Assembly: GCA_011525805.1 (NCBI GenBank)
Contig: WYBR01000003.1
Coordinates: forward strand, 1 to 64,000
DNA from: Vicinamibacteraceae bacterium
GTDB lineage: Bacteria; Planctomycetota; Phycisphaerae; Phycisphaerales; UBA5793
Direction: 5' to 3'
Length of the DNA: 64,000 nucleotides
The stretch's first letter is position 1. Each line of letters opens with the position of its first letter. Under the pieces are notes generated by a model. That model saw nothing but the letters and a program-made list of their open reading frames with translations. It had not been told where the DNA came from and did not search any database. Below, piece by piece: positions 37,575-44,622 of the stretch. The position numbers and the translations under genes were made by a program.

Positions 37575-38006
37575 TCAGTCTTCTTCCTCTTCATCGTCGA
37601 AGACTTCCTCTTCCTCTTCCTCATCTTCGAGGAAATCGTCCTCTTCGTCCTCCTCCTCGTCCCAGAAGTCGTCGTCGTCGTCGTCCGCCTCGTCTTCGTC
37701 GACGTCTTCTTCGTCGAGGTCGGCGTCAAGATCCTCATCTTCGCCCTCTTCCTCGTCTTCCTCATCGTCGACGTCTTCGTCATCATCGTCAAGGTCGAGG
37801 TCTTCCTCTTCCTCGTCGATGCCCAGTTCGTCGTCCCCCTCCTCCTCTTCATCGTAGAGGGCGGGTTCGAGCGCGCCGTGGCATTGGGCGAGCGCGTCGA
37901 GAAGCGCGAGGGTGGACTCGGGGCGCTGGAGGCGACCAAGGAGTTCGTCGGCGGAAGCGACGCCGTAGACGGAGCAGGAGAGGATCGAAGAGGGGAAGTT
38001 CTTCAT
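37575..38006 (-). CDS. Extremely acidic Asp/Glu-tail protein
   Basis: A 143-residue protein. Residues 1-58 form a normal, partly helical domain (MKNFPSSILSCSVYGVASAD, LLGRLQRPESTLALLDALAQ). From about 59 to the end almost every residue is Asp or Glu, with a few Leu, Phe and Trp. Poly-acidic tails of this kind occur on histone chaperones, on DNA-mimic proteins and on RNA polymerase delta. The gene runs next to S21 and a conserved small protein. The opposite strand reads as poly-Ser and is a shadow. An ATG at 38006 starts the folded part; the upstream frame is not protein-like. Confidence 0.7.
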   Translation of the reverse strand: MKNFPSSILSCSVYGVASADELLGRLQRPESTLALLDALAQCHGALEPALYDEEEEGDDELGIDEEEEDLDLDDDDEDVDDEEDEEEGEDEDLDADLDEEDVDEDEADDDDDDFWDEEEDEEDDFLEDEEEEEEVFDDEEEED

Positions 38007-38107
38007 GGCAGTGCTGACCTTGAAAGGTGCGGTCGCGCGGTCAATGCGGCCGCCGGGTGGTTTGGTGCCCTTGCCGAACCGGCCCAACCCCGGGCCGAAG
38101 CGCGGGT

Positions 38108-38139
38108 ACACTACAGGGCACCGTTTGCTTGTCAAACGG
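38108..38139 (-). promoter_or_regulatory. Candidate leftward promoter overlapping a palindrome
   Basis: Reading the minus strand, TTGACA (38135-38130) is followed after 16 bp by TAGTGT (38113-38108). The -35 box lies inside a perfect palindrome CCGTTTG-CTTGT-CAAACGG (38121-38139). It is placed about 100 bp upstream of the acidic-protein start (38006) and may be an operator-overlapped promoter for it. Confidence 0.4.
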
Positions 38140-38163: not shown

Positions 38164-38685
38164 ATGCAAGCCGGCCCCGGACCGCGGGGCAATCGCGGAG
38201 ATCACCCTGTGTTGGTCCCGGACGCCGACGACGCCCACGCACGATTCAACCTCTTCGCGCCGATCCTGGCGTGGATCGTGCCGGGGCTGGGGCACTGGTT
38301 CCTCGGGCATCGGCGGCGCGCGCGCCTCATCGCGGCGGGAATCGCGATCCTCTACTTCGGCGGACTGCTCCTCGGCGGACTGGGGGTGATCGACCGGCAG
38401 CAGAAGCCGTTGTGGTTCTACGGCCAACTGCTTGTCGGACCCGCCACCCCGATCATCAACGCCTGGCACGCCGCTCACTACCCGCCGAAGGATCCGACGT
38501 ACAGCGTCAATCACGCCTATGCCCGCCCCTCCTTCAGCCACAGCCACGAGATCCCCACGCTCTTCACCACCGTCGCCGGAATGCTCAACCTCCTCGCCAT
38601 TCTGGATGTGATCTTCCTGCCGCGCTTCCGGCGCGAGCAGCGGCCCGCCGGTCCGCCGGGCGGAGTGGAGCGCCGCGCCAAATGA
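38164..38685 (+). CDS. DUF6677-like membrane protein
   Basis: A protein of about 173 residues with at least three hydrophobic segments. The opening FAPILAWIVPGLGHWFLGHR is followed by a basic RRARLIAAG and then GGLLLGGLGVIDRQQKP. The C-terminal part LFTTVAGMLNLLAILDVIFL is a further helix. The pattern matches DUF6677, a family seen in planctomycetes. The frame is open to 38005 but the ATG at 38164 is the best supported start. Its stop overlaps the ATG of the next gene by 4 bp, so the two are translationally coupled and probably form a complex. Confidence 0.65.
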   Translation: MQAGPGPRGNRGDHPVLVPDADDAHARFNLFAPILAWIVPGLGHWFLGHRRRARLIAAGIAILYFGGLLLGGLGVIDRQQKPLWFYGQLLVGPATPIINAWHAAHYPPKDPTYSVNHAYARPSFSHSHEIPTLFTTVAGMLNLLAILDVIFLPRFRREQRPAGPPGGVERRAK

Positions 38686-38939
38686 ACACGCTCCTGCCGG
38701 CCCTGACGCTCGCCTATCGCCCCTTTCTCGATCCGATCGACATCAGCGGATGGTGGGGGTGGCTCGTCATTCCCATGGCCTTTCTCATCTCGATGGTGTA
38801 CAAGGCCATCCGCGTGCCGACGATGCGCCGCTACTGGCGGCAGGTCGTGAAGATGACCGTTCAGGTGATGGTCGTCATGCTGCTCATGTGCATCGGCCTC
38901 TACGTCATCGTCCTCTGGGCCGCCCCGCGCTACTTCTGA
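38682..38939 (+). CDS. Small membrane protein coupled to the DUF6677-like gene
   Basis: An 85-residue protein with two hydrophobic segments (about residues 24-40 and 58-80) joined by a basic loop (YKAIRVPTMRRYWRQVVKM). Its start overlaps the upstream stop as ATGA. It has no recognised domain. Its ending WAAPRYF is followed at 38952 by an imperfect palindromic repeat. Probably the partner subunit of the upstream protein; function unknown. Confidence 0.65.
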   Translation: MNTLLPALTLAYRPFLDPIDISGWWGWLVIPMAFLISMVYKAIRVPTMRRYWRQVVKMTVQVMVVMLLMCIGLYVIVLWAAPRYF

Positions 38940-39027: not shown

Positions 39028-40494
39028 TCACGCATACTTCACCACCTTCGCCCGCCGCGCCTCCCCGTCGAGATTCACCACGAGGTAGCGCAGCGCATCG
39101 CACGCGTGATCGCTCCCGTCCTTCACCGGTTCGAGACTGTCCCTCTGCTCCGCCGGGTAGTGGTAGGAGCGCAGCGCCTCGATGAGCCGCGCGCAACGCG
39201 GATCGATGCGCAACGCCACGCGGCCATCGGCGCTGCGCAGAAGAGCCGAGACCGCGCGGATGCCCGCCAGCACCGCGCACGCCCGCGCGCGGATCTGGAA
39301 CCCCGCGCGCATGAGCAGCGACGCCGAACTCGTGCCGAGGTGCTCGTGGCGCTGAAAGCCCGCAGGGTCGATGCCGATCCACGCCAGCGGCCGCTTCGCG
39401 CTCCGCGCCCCAATAACCTCGATGTGCTGGCCGATCGTCATCTCCGAGGCGATGTGCTCATCGACGACGTGGACGCTCCCATCGCCGTGAACCCGCGCCC
39501 ACAGCACGACCGTCGGCGATCGGAAGCCGAAGTCCATTCCCGCCGCCCACGCGCCGCGCGATGCGTCCATCTCGACGAACGGCTCGACGTGCACCTTCTC
39601 ATCGAACTGTGCATAGACGCAGTCGCTGCGGCTCGGTTCGCGGCAGAGCATCTCGGCCGCCCATGCGGGCGGGTCGGTCCGCTGCTGCTGCGCCAGTGCA
39701 TCATCGACGCGGAAGAAGCCGCGGGCGCGGCGCGCCAGGGCGCCGCAGTCCTCCCACAGGCCGCATCCTCCGCACGGCCGGGACGGCGGGCAGCGCTCGA
39801 TCACTTCGAGCAGTCCCCAGCGGAACAGCCGCCGACCCCCCTGCTCGCGCACGAGGCGGTGCATCAGGCCGAAGGGCCGGTGCATCGTGCTCAGCGCCTC
39901 GATGCCGCCGCGAACGAAGACGTCGCCGCACTGCGCCGAGCGCGTCACGAACTGCGCCGCCTGCCAGACCTCGGGCGTGAACAACTCGACCTCGTCGCAG
40001 CGGAGTTTCTGCACCCGCAGGCCGCGCACCGACTGCTCCGATTGCGCCTGCACCTCGACGCGCGAGCCGCTCTTGAGTTGAATGTGCTTGCCCGTCGCCT
40101 TGCCTTCGAGCAGGTCGCCGAAGACGTCGCTCTCGATCATCTCGCGCAGGTAGGCGTGCATGCGCGAGGACTGCTCGAGCGAGCCTCCGAGGATGCGAAC
40201 TTGGATGCCGGGCTTGAAGAGCAGATCGAGAAGCGTGGCGATGGCGCCGTAGCGCGTCTTGCCCCCGCCGCGGTTCGCCCACACGATGCAGTCGCGCTGC
40301 GCGCCCGTCTCGAAGAAGGCGTGGCAGAGGTAGTCAAAGGGAGCACTGTGTCCTTCGAGGACCGCCCGGCGCGGCACGTCAAAACCCAGCACCGCGCGCA
40401 GATACCCGTGCAGTTCGTCCGCGGTCGCCGGCCGGATCAGCCGCAGCGCCCGGCGCACGTGCAGCGCCGTCGGTGAAGTCTCGCGCAGGAGCAT
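39028..40494 (-). CDS. Phage large terminase subunit
   Basis: A 488-residue DNA-packaging motor. The ATPase domain has Walker A WANRGGGKT (about residue 66) and a Walker B-like LRCDEVE (about 155). The RNase H-like nuclease domain has GMDFGFRSPTVVLW with the first Asp (about 324) and a late acidic DGSDHACDALRY (about 470). Between the domains is a four-cysteine motif CPPSRPCGGCGLWEDC. The ATG at 40494 begins 1 nt after the stop of the upstream gene, so they form one operon. A frame open upstream is shadow. It belongs to the same leftward operon as the five genes behind it. Confidence 0.9.
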   Translation of the reverse strand: MLLRETSPTALHVRRALRLIRPATADELHGYLRAVLGFDVPRRAVLEGHSAPFDYLCHAFFETGAQRDCIVWANRGGGKTRYGAIATLLDLLFKPGIQVRILGGSLEQSSRMHAYLREMIESDVFGDLLEGKATGKHIQLKSGSRVEVQAQSEQSVRGLRVQKLRCDEVELFTPEVWQAAQFVTRSAQCGDVFVRGGIEALSTMHRPFGLMHRLVREQGGRRLFRWGLLEVIERCPPSRPCGGCGLWEDCGALARRARGFFRVDDALAQQQRTDPPAWAAEMLCREPSRSDCVYAQFDEKVHVEPFVEMDASRGAWAAGMDFGFRSPTVVLWARVHGDGSVHVVDEHIASEMTIGQHIEVIGARSAKRPLAWIGIDPAGFQRHEHLGTSSASLLMRAGFQIRARACAVLAGIRAVSALLRSADGRVALRIDPRCARLIEALRSYHYPAEQRDSLEPVKDGSDHACDALRYLVVNLDGEARRAKVVKYA

Positions 40495-40495
40495 T

Positions 40496-40984
40496 TCAAT
40501 CCGCCCCGCACGGAGATGCGTCCGCCGCCTCGGCCTCGCCGCCATCCGCCGCCTCGGGTGGTGCGCCGGCCTCGCGGCCAAGCTCGCCCAGCAGTCGCCG
40601 CACGGCACCTTCGTCGATCACGCTCGGAACCGCGCCCGCCCGTTCGGCGGCGACCTCACCGCCGGTCAACGGGATCAGGCACACCTTCAGCAGATCTACG
40701 CACGCCTTGCGCGCCAGTTCGCCCGCGCCCTCGTCCTTGGCGAGTTCGAAGAGCCGCGCCGCGGCGAGCGTGCGGTAGCGGCTCACGAGCAGTTGCGCCC
40801 GCACGTCATTGAGGCGGCACAGGCCGTCGAGCGCGGCGATGGTGTCAGGCTGCGTGGCCCAACCCGCCAGCCATGTGAGCGTCAGCCGCTCCCGCCGCGC
40901 CAGTTCATCAAGATCCTGCTGCGCTTCGTAGAGCGAGTGCATCAGGCGCTCGCTTCGCTTCGAGTTGATGGATGACTGCTTCAT
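40496..40984 (-). CDS. Small terminase subunit candidate
   Basis: A 162-residue helical protein (KRSERLMHSLYEAQQDLDEL, ARRERLTLTWLAGWATQ, KACVDLLKVCLIPL) with an acidic, Ala-rich tail. It has no enzymatic motif and no clear HTH. Its place directly ahead of the large terminase (1-bp gap) and its size make it the best candidate for the small, DNA-recognising subunit. It overlaps the upstream ParB-like gene by 4 bp. Assignment is from position only. Confidence 0.5.
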   Translation of the reverse strand: MKQSSINSKRSERLMHSLYEAQQDLDELARRERLTLTWLAGWATQPDTIAALDGLCRLNDVRAQLLVSRYRTLAAARLFELAKDEGAGELARKACVDLLKVCLIPLTGGEVAAERAGAVPSVIDEGAVRRLLGELGREAGAPPEAADGGEAEAADASPCGAD

Positions 40985-41598
40985 GTTTGGCTCCGCGCGG
41001 GTGGTTGAGGATGGGGTTGGGCGTCGGCGTCGAGTCGCAGGTGCGCCACGAGTTGCTGCGATCGCGTGCCGGCATGACCGCTGAGCGCTTCGTCGAGTCG
41101 GCGCTTCTGCGCCGGCGTGAGGAAGAAGGTCACGGCGACGGGCAGATCGCCGGCGCGGATCGAAGGCGCGGGCGCCGGCGGCTCCAGGCGCACCTGCCTG
41201 AGCCGCTCGAGGCGCTCGGCATCTTCGGGGAGGATCTGCGGCAGGCGCTGCTCGCCGAAGCGCTGCCGCAGCGATTCGAGCAGGTCCGCCCGCCGCCGCA
41301 CCTCATCGCGCCCCTGCAATCGATTGAGCGTCGCGAGCAGCACCAGCGCCTCATCATCATCGACCTCCCACACCTCGCATCGCGCCGCCGTGCGGCCGAG
41401 CCGCCGCAGCGCTTCGGCCCGATGATGGCCGTCGAGAATCTCGTACGCCCCCGTCTCGCCGGGCATCGGCCGCACAATCAGGTGCGGATAGCGATCCGTG
41501 CGCTCGATGTGGCCCGCGAGTTTGACGAGCAGCCCTTCGGGCATCACGTTGGCGTTGTCCGCCCGGCTCCGAAGTTGCGTGAGGGGAATCTCGATCAT
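40981..41598 (-). CDS. ParB/Srx-like nuclease domain protein
   Basis: A 205-residue protein. It begins MIEIPLTQLRSRADNANVMP (ParB-N-like), with the signature ...YEILDGHHRAEALRRLG (GxHRxxA) at about residues 50-65. A helical part follows with LLESLRQRFGEQRLP. The C-terminal part has a Pro-rich linker and a short AQKRRLDEALSGH helix. ParB/Srx domains cut DNA, bind CTP or act in chromosome or phage segregation; this one stands in the packaging operon. The ATG at 41598 is coupled (ATGA) to the stop of the upstream gene. Confidence 0.78.
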   Translation of the reverse strand: MIEIPLTQLRSRADNANVMPEGLLVKLAGHIERTDRYPHLIVRPMPGETGAYEILDGHHRAEALRRLGRTAARCEVWEVDDDEALVLLATLNRLQGRDEVRRRADLLESLRQRFGEQRLPQILPEDAERLERLRQVRLEPPAPAPSIRAGDLPVAVTFFLTPAQKRRLDEALSGHAGTRSQQLVAHLRLDADAQPHPQPPARSQT

Positions 41599-42362
41599 GA
41601 CCGGCCTCGCTGCGGATCGTGGTGGAGGTAGTAGACGCAGCGCGACAGAAGGCGGTCGCGCGCCAGGCGCAGGACGTCGTCGAGGCCGGCAACCTGGGCC
41701 TTGCCGCGCGCCATGAACGCCGCACTGCGATGCCAGCGGCGCAGTTCGCCCTCGATCCACGCGCGCCGCGCCGCCTCAAGTTCGCCCAGGCGATGCGCGA
41801 GGAGCCGCGGCGAGGCGAGCAGCGTGCGCGGCCAGTTCACCTCGGTCATCGCGTCGAGCAGCCGGCTGTCGGCCGGCCGCGGCGGCGCCTCGTAGCGCCC
41901 CATGCCCGCGCGCTCGAAGAACGGGTTCACCCGTCCCATCGCCGCCAGCGCTTCGACGTAGGGCGTGTCGTCATGCGCCAGCGCGTGCTTCACGAGGCGC
42001 ACCGCCAGGCCGAGTCCGCGGTAGCGTGGCTCAAGCACGACGCGGGCGATGGTGCGCACCTCGGCGTTGAGCAGGTCCGCCGCCTCGCTTCGCCGCAGCC
42101 GCGCGTAGCGCCCGCCGGTGGCGTGGTCGCGCAGCGTGCAAGTGAGTTGCGGTCGCGTCATGACGAGGACTCCCACGAGCGTCGGCCGCGCGGCGGCGCC
42201 GGTGAAGCGAGCGACGGCGTCAGGCGCGTCGTGCCGCATCGCGTAGACCGCCGTCGGGGCGAAGGGCGAGCCGGAGCGGTAGTGGTGCTCCGCCAGGGCG
42301 CGGTAGTCGCGCAGGCTCCCCGCGTCGATGCGCAGCGTCTCGTCGGTCGGCAGCACGGTCAC
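41595..42362 (-). CDS. GNAT-fold acetyltransferase domain protein
   Basis: A 255-residue protein. The central part matches a GNAT N-acetyltransferase: VRTIARVVLEPRYRGLGLAV, RLVKHALAHDDTPYVEALAA and MGRVNPFFERAGM, containing the acetyl-CoA pyrophosphate loop (R-x-x-G-L-G-x-A type). The C-terminal 90 residues are helical and basic. It starts with GTG (42362), overlapping the ATPase stop in GTGA. The pair ATPase plus acetyltransferase recalls COG2401, in which an ABC-type ATPase is fused to an acetyltransferase domain; here they are separate genes. The substrate is unknown. Confidence 0.75.
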   Translation of the reverse strand: MTVLPTDETLRIDAGSLRDYRALAEHHYRSGSPFAPTAVYAMRHDAPDAVARFTGAAARPTLVGVLVMTRPQLTCTLRDHATGGRYARLRRSEAADLLNAEVRTIARVVLEPRYRGLGLAVRLVKHALAHDDTPYVEALAAMGRVNPFFERAGMGRYEAPPRPADSRLLDAMTEVNWPRTLLASPRLLAHRLGELEAARRAWIEGELRRWHRSAAFMARGKAQVAGLDDVLRLARDRLLSRCVYYLHHDPQRGRS

Positions 42363-43054
42363 GAAGCCCCCTCCGGGTCGCGAAGCCGCGAGCGGCGGTG
42401 AATCTCGATCCCGCCTCCGAGGGGCTTGCAGATCAGGACGTCCGGCTCAAGCGCTTCGATGAGATCCTCATGCGTCGTCGCGGCGATGAAGCACACGCGC
42501 GGGCTGCGGTCGACCCACCGCCGCACGTTCCGCGCCGCCGCCGCGGCCGTGAGACGGTCGAGCGTCGCGCCGAACTCGTCGGCCAGGATGACGATCTCGG
42601 CGAGTTCCTCCGCGTGCGTCGCGCGCTCGATGAGCCGCGCCAAGCCCAGGCGGTACCGCTGCCCATCGCTCAGTTCGCTCGGCCGGCGGAGCATCGCGAA
42701 CGCATCCGCGAGTCCGGCGAGCGAGAGGATCAGCGCCGCCTCCTCGACGGTCGAGCCGACCTGCTCGATGATCGGCCGGTCGTCGCGGCCGTTGAGCATG
42801 TCCTCGAAGCGCAGGCAGCCCGCGCATTCATCCGCGATGCAGCGGAGGATGGTGGACTTGCCGCTGCCGCTCGGTCCGGTGATGAAGATGACTTCGCCGC
42901 CGCATAGTTCGATCGCCGTGCGCGGGACGATGGTTCGCGGGCGCGCCTCATCGACCCCCAGGCCGAACATCGACGCGACTTCGAGCACGCGCTCGCTCGG
43001 CTCGACAGCGGTGGGAACGGCCCGTTCGACGGCGATGCTCCGGCGCCAGGTCAC
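42359..43054 (-). CDS. Soluble ABC-type ATPase (COG2401-like)
   Basis: A 231-residue ABC ATPase without membrane segments. Walker A is ITGPSGSGKST, the signature is LSDGQRYRLGLARL, Walker B is EIVILADEFGATLD and there is a terminal CFIAATTHED with the switch His. No permease gene lies near. It looks most like the ATPase half of COG2401 proteins, whose other half is an acetyltransferase; the GNAT gene follows with a 4-bp overlap. The GTG at 43054 overlaps the stop of the HTH gene. It may act on DNA or on the packaging motor; function is unproven. Confidence 0.8.
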   Translation of the reverse strand: MTWRRSIAVERAVPTAVEPSERVLEVASMFGLGVDEARPRTIVPRTAIELCGGEVIFITGPSGSGKSTILRCIADECAGCLRFEDMLNGRDDRPIIEQVGSTVEEAALILSLAGLADAFAMLRRPSELSDGQRYRLGLARLIERATHAEELAEIVILADEFGATLDRLTAAAAARNVRRWVDRSPRVCFIAATTHEDLIEALEPDVLICKPLGGGIEIHRRSRLRDPEGAS

Positions 43055-43539
43055 GACGCGCGGCTCCGCGGCTGTGTGTGCGGCTCGAATCCCATGGCCT
43101 CGTAGCGCGCCTTGATGTGCTCGACCTCGCGGCGGACGACGTGCATGGTGAGATGCGCCCGGCGGGCGGTGTCGCGCAGCGTGCAGCGCTGGAGCAGGTG
43201 CAGGTCCGCCACCTGTTGCCTCGCCTCGCTCCACTGTGAGCGGTGCGCGAGAATGAACGAGAAGAGCGGGCTTCGAAGGTGGCGAAGCAGGTCGCGCGTC
43301 CGCCGCCGCACCGTTCCGGGATGCACCCCCATGAGGCGCGCCAGTTGCCCGGCCGTCATCCCCTTGCTGTAAAACCCCTCGACGACCGCCCGGTCCTCGG
43401 GAGAGAGCAGGCTCGCCCGGTTGAGCACCCAGTCATCGTCCATCCGCTGGTCGGGGCGCCGATCAACGACCGGCTTCCGCCGTGCGTTTCCGAGGTCCGA
43501 TCCCGCCGCTGCTGCAATCTGGAGGATTCCGCTTGACAT
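43051..43539 (-). CDS. HTH (sigma region 4-like) protein, operon start
   Basis: A 162-residue protein. Its centre reads LSPEDRAVVEGFYSKGMTAG and then ARLMGVHPGTVRRRTRDLL, a sigma-70 region 4-like HTH. A second HTH-like stretch (ADLHLLQRCTLRDTARRAHL, then TMHVVRREVEHI) follows. It is the first gene of the leftward operon and probably a transcription activator of late genes or part of DNA recognition. The candidate promoter just before it would give a nearly leaderless mRNA, unless translation starts at Met33. Confidence 0.72.
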   Translation of the reverse strand: MSSGILQIAAAAGSDLGNARRKPVVDRRPDQRMDDDWVLNRASLLSPEDRAVVEGFYSKGMTAGQLARLMGVHPGTVRRRTRDLLRHLRSPLFSFILAHRSQWSEARQQVADLHLLQRCTLRDTARRAHLTMHVVRREVEHIKARYEAMGFEPHTQPRSRAS

Positions 43540-43548
43540 GGCGGTCCT

Positions 43549-43576
43549 ATTGTGTTAGGCTTTAGTACGGTGTCAA
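43549..43576 (-). promoter_or_regulatory. Leftward operon promoter
   Basis: Reading the minus strand, a perfect TTGACA (43576-43571) is followed by 16 bp and CACAAT (43554-43549), a 4/6 match to TATAAT. The expected transcript start is only a few bases ahead of the ATG at 43539. It lies next to the GTTCAC/GTGAAC palindrome. Confidence 0.6.
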
Positions 43577-43583
43577 GAGGGAA

Positions 43584-43620
43584 GTTCACAATGTCGTGAA
43601 CAAAGTGCGCACGTGTGCGC
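43584..43620. promoter_or_regulatory. Candidate operators in the divergent control region
   Basis: Two inverted repeats: GTTCAC-AATGTC-GTGAAC (43584-43601) and GCGCAC-GT-GTGCGC (43607-43620). The first lies 7 bp upstream of the -35 of the leftward promoter. The region separates the phage operon from the CI/LexA-like repressor gene, so these are candidate binding sites for that repressor. Confidence 0.5.
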
Positions 43621-43652
43621 GAATGTGGAGGAGCGACCCCACTGGAGAGGCA

Positions 43653-43801
43653 TTCACCACAGAGAGCACAGAGGGCACAGAAGAGAGGCATAAGTCATTT
43701 TTTGACAGCGGTTTGTGCCCGTTCCCACAGATCCGAATCGCTCCCTGACCTGATTCTTTCACCCTCCTGCCCCTCTGTGCCCTCTGTGCTTTCTGTGGTA
43801 A
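43653..43801. repeat. Inverted CACAGAG-type repeat element
   Basis: About 150 bp bounded by inverted arms. The left arm is TTCACCACAGAGAGCACAGA (43653-43672), continuing GGGCACAG. The right arm (43770-43801) is its near complement, with CTCTGTGCCCTCTGTGC. The interior is not repetitive. An element with the same arms lies in the cysteine desulfurase gene (54195-54370). It lies ahead of the repressor start (43825) and may carry or interrupt its promoter. Confidence 0.8.
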
Positions 43802-43824
43802 GGTCAATCGAGCAGAGCCTTGAG

Positions 43825-44622
43825 ATGTCCACCATCGGTTTGATGATCCGCCGGCGCAGGCAGGCGCTGGGGCTGACGCTTCAGCAGGTGGCCGAGCGCG
43901 CCGGTTGCGGCCGGGCCTATCTCTCGATGATCGAGACCGGCGCCCGCCCTGTGCCCGCCGAGCCGCTGCTCGCCGCGATCGAGCGGGCCCTGGCGATTGA
44001 GCCGGGTCAACTGATCGAGGCCGCGTGCTGGGAGGCGACGCCGAAAACGGTTCAGAAGGAACTCGCGGCGCTGCGGCAGCGCGAGGAGCGGGCCGCGGCC
44101 GTCGCCCGCTGCCTCATCGAGCACGGCCCGGACCTCGACGCCCTGCTGAGGTCGGGCATGCTCCACCGCTTCATCGAGGACCACACCCGCAACCACGATG
44201 AGCCGCTGCCCCTGCGCCTGCGCGTGCCGGTGATCAACGACGTCGCCGCCGGCGTGCCGCGCGAGTTCACCGACCTCGACTACCCCGCGGCCGTCGCAGA
44301 TGAGTATCTCGAGTGCCCCGACCTCGGCGACGCCGACGCCTTCGCCGCCCGGGTCATCGGCGACTCGATGGAGCCTCAGTACCGCGAGGGCGACATCGTC
44401 GTCTTCTCACCCGCCGCCGCCACGCCCGACGGCTGCGACTGCTTTGTGCGCCTCGAACCCGACCACGAAACGACCTTCAAGCGCGTGTTCTTCGAGGGTG
44501 AGGAGGGCAGACTGATCCGACTGCAGCCGCTCAACGAGCGCTACGAGGCAAGGGTAGTGGACCGCGAGCAGGTCGCGGGCCTCTACGCGGCAGTGTACGT
44601 GATGCGGCGCGTGGGGAGGTGA
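43825..44622 (+). CDS. CI/LexA-like repressor (XRE HTH + S24 peptidase)
   Basis: A 265-residue repressor. The N-terminal XRE HTH (about residues 5-60) reads MIRRRRQALGLTLQQVAERA and GCGRAYLSMIETGARPVP. The C-terminal LexA/CI-type S24 domain has the catalytic Ser in ARVIGDSMEPQYREGDIVVF (about residue 181) and the Lys in ETTFKRVFF (about 218). This suggests self-cleavage under DNA damage (RecA*). It is divergent from the leftward packaging operon, like a phage switch. The ATG at 43825 begins the HTH; no strong ribosome binding site is seen. Confidence 0.9.
   Translation: MSTIGLMIRRRRQALGLTLQQVAERAGCGRAYLSMIETGARPVPAEPLLAAIERALAIEPGQLIEAACWEATPKTVQKELAALRQREERAAAVARCLIEHGPDLDALLRSGMLHRFIEDHTRNHDEPLPLRLRVPVINDVAAGVPREFTDLDYPAAVADEYLECPDLGDADAFAARVIGDSMEPQYREGDIVVFSPAAATPDGCDCFVRLEPDHETTFKRVFFEGEEGRLIRLQPLNERYEARVVDREQVAGLYAAVYVMRRVGR

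Follow-up and report, generated by a model that had tools for sequence, protein, structure and literature searches.

The DNA analysed here comprises positions 1 to 64,000 of contig WYBR01000003.1 (assembly GCA_011525805.1), deposited as Vicinamibacteraceae bacterium and placed by GTDB in the planctomycete order Phycisphaerales; this whole stretch is called the window, and all coordinates are positions in it. On its minus strand lie six genes in the order helix-turn-helix (HTH) protein, ABC ATPase, GNAT-fold acyltransferase, ParB-like protein, candidate small terminase subunit (TerS) and large terminase subunit (TerL). A first-pass annotation, whose interval (40496-43539) ends before TerL, had described these six genes as overlapping by 4 bp or nearly touching, and this was confirmed: the junctions are the 4-bp overlaps GTGA, GTGA, ATGA and ATGA, followed by a 1-nt gap ahead of TerL. 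The same gene order was found again in dozens of genomes and is therefore beyond chance; a neighbourhood unique to one genome, which the annotation had named as speaking against its proposal, was not what we found. The operon calls rest on profile matches; a simple gene caller mis-strands several genes of these high-GC genomes.

The last gene (39028-40494, minus strand) encodes TerL, a packaging ATPase joined to an RNase H-like nuclease, with matches to Terminase_6C (2e-7, above the Pfam cut-off), phrog_2 (2e-20) and the terminase nuclease 5oe8 (2e-11). The residues expected of a large terminase subunit, namely the Walker A Lys-Thr, the Walker B Asp-Glu and three acidic nuclease motifs, are intact in all 41 aligned TerL rows. 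The same 41 cellular rows share a knuckle of four cysteines (C236, C242, C245 and C251) between motor and nuclease, a possible metal site. It is lacking in three phage TerLs and present in two viral contigs (L213, L214), and the idea that it is a cellular invention was rejected because these viral contigs also have it. Matches of the TerL profile to the tandem cyanovirins 3s3y and 3s3z (5e-6) were built from many repeats with no single passing stretch, and were judged to be chance.

The TerS candidate (40496-40984, minus strand) precedes TerL, and comparison with its relatives points to a start at an internal ATG near 40942. A Pfam/PHROG scan of the protein from the window gave no family match; 6 of 33 members matched phrog_2538, a terminase small subunit family, weakly (best E 0.0067). 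The model of this candidate (pLDDT 75) shows an N-terminal HTH, a long helix and a C-terminal helix, an anatomy that fits a small terminase, and among the matches listed in a PDB fold search there was none for it. Matches to TALE chains (6e-8) came from many repeats without a single passing stretch, and the reading of this fifth gene as a TALE-like repeat protein was rejected as chance. The ParB-like protein (40981-41598, minus strand, 205 aa) matched phrog_723 (7e-12), with Pfam ParB_N below its cut-off (0.065). The ABC ATPase (42359-43054, minus strand, about 231 aa), which has no permease, starts with a GTG overlapping the HTH stop; the query used for database searches began two codons upstream, at 43060. 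It matched ABC_tran (2e-9, above the Pfam cut-off) and phrog_293 (7e-25), and its Walker A, signature and Walker B Asp-Glu are conserved. The first gene (43051-43539, minus strand) encodes a 162-aa protein with a sigma-70 region-4-like HTH (Sigma70_r4, 8.5e-7), whose profile was found in 64 of 80 genome-contig loci.

A divergent gene (43825-44622, plus strand, 265 aa) is a seventh member of the unit. It encodes a CI/LexA-like S24 repressor (Peptidase_S24 8e-16, HTH_31 1e-12, phrog_4 repressor 3e-28) with the sequence features of self-cleavage: besides an N-terminal HTH, the Ala142-Gly143 bond, Ser181 and Lys219 are invariant in 28/28 sequences. Because these residues are kept, the operon is probably under the control of DNA damage, as far as sequence can tell. 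The region between the divergent genes (43540-43824) is the presumed place of the operator and promoters; individual 8-mers, ATACCAAA for example, are shared by up to 19 of 78 regions of this kind, against a maximum of 7 after shuffling; the 78 include near-duplicates, and the counts are uncorrected for kinship.

Genomic setting and inheritance of the operon

The neighbours of the operon are housekeeping genes, such as those for an H+-pyrophosphatase, ribosomal protein S21 (rpsU), DUF6677, a YacP-like NYN protein and Mrp antiporter subunits, and no head or tail genes were seen in the flanks. A convergent pair outside the unit (38164-38939, plus strand), composed of a DUF6677 gene (38164-38685, 8e-20) and a gene for a small membrane protein (38682-38939), adjoins the operon in 15 loci from 4 families and marks a conserved site. 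A recent mobile island was rejected since the same flank pair occurs in 4 families. Next to this pair, at 37575-38111, lies a gene for a very acidic low-complexity protein with long Asp/Glu runs, which is conserved in four loci of the genus only.

TerL was found at E 1e-50 or better in 150 of the 298 genomes of the class (Phycisphaerae), nearly always as a single copy. A scan of named genomes with the TerL profile confirmed 305 stretches; the 80 kept were from metagenome-assembled genomes (MAGs) of Planctomycetota or Phycisphaerales, barring records labelled just 'bacterium' or, in one case, Cyanobacteria. A MAG titled Cyanobacteria bacterium (L117, RHKP01000007.1) with a Phycisphaerales-type TerL is probably mislabelled or a mixed bin. 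Among the 80 is the complete genome ZRK34 (CP050848.1), which carries the operon. Twenty of 294 genomes of the phylum, our own genome included, match TerL at 1e-145 or better, all within the class, and the best match outside the class (7e-45) belongs to L180, a real prophage that also encodes a small terminase, a portal and a protease.

The TerL tree (44 rows) follows the GTDB families, as its 10 groups need 9 changes, which is the minimum. Families f1 and f2 each form one well-supported clade, f5 and f9 are single with weaker support, and f6 was not resolved as one group (2 changes). The TerL of G014, a short piece after a stop, was omitted from the tree and from the 41 motif rows, and those of G017, G031, G033 and G037, found later, are absent from both. 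Pairwise dN/dS was 0.09-0.33 in all seven genes (up to five pairs). The tree and these values show vertical inheritance under selection, a property shared with gene transfer agents, which likewise keep an inherited and selected packaging enzyme of phage origin in the chromosome; no head or tail cluster was found with the operon. The structural genes that mark a prophage are missing beside this terminase, in contrast to the prophages G030, G042, G051 and L180, and an intact or defective prophage was rejected since the housekeeping flanks, the TerL tree and the selection speak against it. The placement of the genes 'inside a phage packaging operon' by the first-pass annotation thus has to be revised: the locus is chromosomal and vertically inherited, and its flanks showed no head or tail genes.

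The ATPase-GNAT unit and its co-retention with TerL

COG2401 joins an ABC ATPase and an acetyltransferase domain in one protein, and the ATPase and GNAT of the window had been proposed to be a split unit of this kind working with DNA packaging. Whereas COG2401 is a fusion, in the window the two parts are encoded separately, by genes that overlap by 4 bp and share an operon with TerL. Of the 68 loci holding both domains, 30 encode them in a single open frame that begins with the ATPase, and so do 12 loci of a second family described below. The split COG2401-like reading is supported by this sharing of one frame, with the profiles phrog_293 and phrog_886 used in place of a COG2401 profile.

The GNAT gene (41595-42362, minus strand, 255 aa) matched phrog_886 (9e-15), and Pfam GNAT families were below the cut-off (about 3e-3). 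Its AlphaFold2 model has a mean pLDDT of 94 and was recognised as a GNAT fold in the PDB search; R115 is invariant, and G116 and G118 are conserved at 90% or more. The top Foldseek matches of this model were TmcA (5e-5), NAT10, KacT, AtaT and phage Mu Mom (5e-4), and the identity in the fold match to TmcA/NAT10 and Mom was 12-18%. In TmcA and NAT10, too, a GNAT is coupled with an ATPase, although that ATPase is of another kind than the ABC ATPase. In VIA-align the best 50 entries had Z of 11.4-12.8, and protein N-terminal and small-molecule acetyltransferases stood above Mom (Z 12.1, rmsd 3.6, 145 aligned).

Among 61 genomes of the order, TerL was found in 39 and GNAT in 37: both occur in 37, TerL only in 2, GNAT only in 0 and neither in 22 (Fisher 1.2e-14, with neither kinship nor duplicate genomes corrected for). 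A weak TerL match in G030 (2.6e-12), which belongs to a prophage, was not counted as positive. The two genomes with TerL only are G017, whose TerL is in two pieces, and G037, which is 88% complete in 650 contigs. Genomes without TerL and GNAT cluster in family f3, with some in f5 and f6. Both genes were also kept in 7/7 class-level genomes tested; in four of these TerL lies outside the operon and GNAT is about 30 kb off or on another contig, and in one from a distant family, read gene by gene, TerL adjoins dnaA. The proposal that the ATPase-GNAT pair works with TerL is thus borne out as far as inheritance goes.

A second planctomycete family (f30) belongs to the same phylum but another class; of its 13 genomes with a TerL match, 12 have a fused ATPase-GNAT directly before TerL. 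This core lies among housekeeping genes, for example an arginase-like gene, and no ParB, S24 or head genes were seen in the f30 stretches read. Since f30 keeps little else, the shared core is the ATPase-GNAT together with TerL. A small conserved gene (70-84 aa, with an MDLSA-PYL start) precedes the fused gene in f30, and a small membrane-protein gene follows TerL (L182, L183, L197-L206). In other planctomycetes, TerL homologues stand alone among housekeeping genes, near ffh-like and fusA-like genes (L184, L207, L210), so further domesticated terminases may exist.

Phage relatives and the search for a capsid

The ATPase matched 33 phage records. In SSU5, RHEph10, BUCTxx99 and nickie the order is ParB, ParB, ATPase, GNAT, followed in the last three by TerL and a portal, and the SSU5 stretch stops at the end of the record. 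Furthermore, 80 viral contigs with ATPase loci were kept, 40 of them with enough flank for a neighbourhood count: 36 hold ParB, ATPase, GNAT and TerL, one holds the fused form with TerL and three the fused form without it. TerL is therefore present in 37 of the 40, and the pair does not mainly keep company with unrelated genes, the other outcome named in advance as speaking against the proposal. Going by these phage and viral-contig neighbourhoods, ParB-ATPase-GNAT-TerL is a normal phage packaging module and the planctomycete operon very probably its domesticated form. The window genes fall into the families of the SSU5-type module (phrog_293, phrog_886, phrog_723 and phrog_2, the same as in BUCTxx99), with ParB-like protein, ABC ATPase, GNAT and, in three of the four phage records, TerL running in one direction. 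However, the phages have two ParB genes first and portal and capsid after, whereas the operon starts with the HTH gene and has its ParB-like gene after GNAT; the divergent S24 repressor has been added, and no portal or capsid genes were found downstream of the window TerL.

The first-pass annotation had known of no described system with this set of genes. The phages above carry ParB-ATPase-GNAT, with TerL and portal in three, and the domain pairing itself has been discussed before: according to PMC7824862, which cites Iyer et al. 2013, acylation of a DNA nucleobase was predicted for GNATs that are coupled with ABC ATPases, and jumbo phages, among them Tenacibaculum phage pT24, are given as examples. 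That system, compared here by its description only, shares the pairing and is described there from jumbo phages, not from a cellular terminase operon. In the open-licence literature searched, no description of the cellular operon, no mention of COG2401 and no domesticated planctomycete large terminase were found. PADLOC matched only the ABC and HTH domains, with none for GNAT, ParB-like, TerS-like or TerL; the ABC match (mad3, 3.5e-14 over a short stretch) was judged generic, and identity with the MADS defence system was rejected.

Portal and capsid genes were searched for in the 61 order genomes with PF05065, PF04860, PF05136, phrog_212 and phrog_145. Matches were obtained for PF05065 in 11 genomes, PF04860 above cut-off in 11, phrog_212 in 2 and PF05136 in 25. 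The portal family phrog_145 gave no match in any of the 61, controls included, and since the controls were silent too this part of the search proves nothing. Among the 39 TerL genomes, PF05065 and PF04860 (above cut-off) each matched in 7 and PF05136 matched in 20, and 17 of the 39 gave no match to any portal or capsid family searched. Where TerL genomes have such matches, they are always either on a different contig or no less than 1 Mb away from TerL. Prophages of the order with a ParB-ATPase-TerL module (G030, G042 and G051) show capsid and portal a few kb from TerL, so the search is able to find these genes. Within the portal and capsid families searched, head genes were thus neither in the cluster nor co-inherited with it. 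The operon is very probably a domesticated, inherited one without an adjacent capsid, and many bacteria of one planctomycete class seem to have turned a viral machine to their own use.

The lambda-type portal loci of our own genome (G000, 4.5 Mb) lie on contigs C16, C138, C18, C83, C44 and C74 (L307-L312), and five of them are about 87-92% identical in DNA. The order relative G030 has fourteen such loci. Six and fourteen loci in single genomes are an unusual multiplication of related prophage-like sets. In one lambda-type prophage (L301, 2-1135) a ParB-like N-terminus stands on the frame of an N6_N4 DNA methylase.

Possible roles of a cellular terminase

For this operon we favour a capsid-free role, in which it acts on the chromosome or on incoming DNA. 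As the likeliest mechanism we tentatively put forward that DNA damage induces a machine for marking DNA, moving along it and cutting it. Upon DNA damage, the RecA filament would cause the repressor to cut itself and the operon would be switched on; the ParB-like and TerS-like proteins would bind DNA and give the choice of site; a dimer of the ABC ATPase would clamp the DNA and position the GNAT domain to acylate a base (or a bound protein); and TerL would load there, travel along the DNA and cut it. A narrower version, possible but held with less confidence, is a terminase owned by the cell that packages nothing, in which TerL and an ATP-driven, base-acylating ABC-GNAT enzyme would together mark, travel along and cut chromosomal DNA upon damage, kept class-wide and as a two-gene core in f30.

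Several observations weigh against this mechanism. We know of no use for a packaging motor without a portal, and a motor kept under purifying selection points towards packaging. Some portal or capsid match was present in 22 of the 39 TerL genomes, the families searched do not cover all capsids so that a divergent capsid could possibly escape them, and our own genome holds six lambda-type portal loci. The Foldseek ranking favours nucleic-acid acetyltransferases, yet the VIA-align Z does not separate protein GNATs from them. The repressor was found in only 56 of 80 genome-contig loci, partly because contigs end. In f30 the Walker B Asp of TerL reads Cys, which may weaken the motor there, and the nuclease residues stay.

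The main rival is that the operon is the packaging part of a gene transfer agent, whose terminase fills particles with host DNA and whose head and tail genes lie elsewhere, too divergent to be recognised. Vertical inheritance in single copy, purifying selection, the intact motor and nuclease, a TerS-like partner and a damage-type repressor would all suit such an agent. It is nevertheless unlikely: no head gene lies beside the operon, portal and capsid matches are sporadic and distant (none in 17/39), and the lambda-type sets of our own genome, which hold no relative of the operon in any of their six portal stretches, carry their own GpA-type terminase wherever the stretch is long enough to tell (three of the six). 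The same sets bear on capsid piracy, in which the cell terminase would load DNA into the heads of resident or incoming phages, spoiling their packaging or moving host genes. Heads might be at hand, as each genome of our own genus holds between 4 and 6 lambda-type portal loci; however, lambda-type prophages use an unrelated GpA-type terminase, which makes a match between portal and motor doubtful, and with 17 of the 39 TerL genomes lacking a portal or capsid match we rate piracy as the least likely of the functional rivals.

Somewhat above piracy, but below the gene transfer agent and improbable in its turn, we place a defence or restriction-like role, in which ATPase-GNAT would mark own DNA and TerL would cut what is unmarked. 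TerL does join a DNA translocase to a nuclease, and the GNAT model has TmcA, NAT10, KacT, AtaT and Mu Mom among its best Foldseek matches; DNA modification is also what, according to PMC7824862, was predicted for GNAT-ABC ATPase pairs. Mobile defence loci, however, are unlike a locus inherited vertically across a class at a conserved site, and PADLOC recognised the ABC domain of these genes but none of GNAT, ParB-like, TerS-like or TerL. A remnant of a decaying prophage without present function is hardly credible. Decay was seen in two genomes (G017, with TerL in two pieces and no GNAT, and G014, whose TerL holds a stop), but the low dN/dS of all seven genes, the catalytic residues kept in every one of the 41 rows and the class-wide retention stand against it, and for most lineages the selection signal already refutes it.

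A viral packaging terminase that cells have retained throughout a class, separately from capsid genes, would represent one of two things: what can be seen of an unknown Planctomycetota gene-transfer particle, or a viral motor put to a new use in the cell. The ABC-GNAT (COG2401-like) enzyme, whose function is unassigned, is now tied to TerL by co-inheritance. The old prediction of DNA base acylation thereby becomes testable, as relatives with complete genomes, such as ZRK34, carry the operon.

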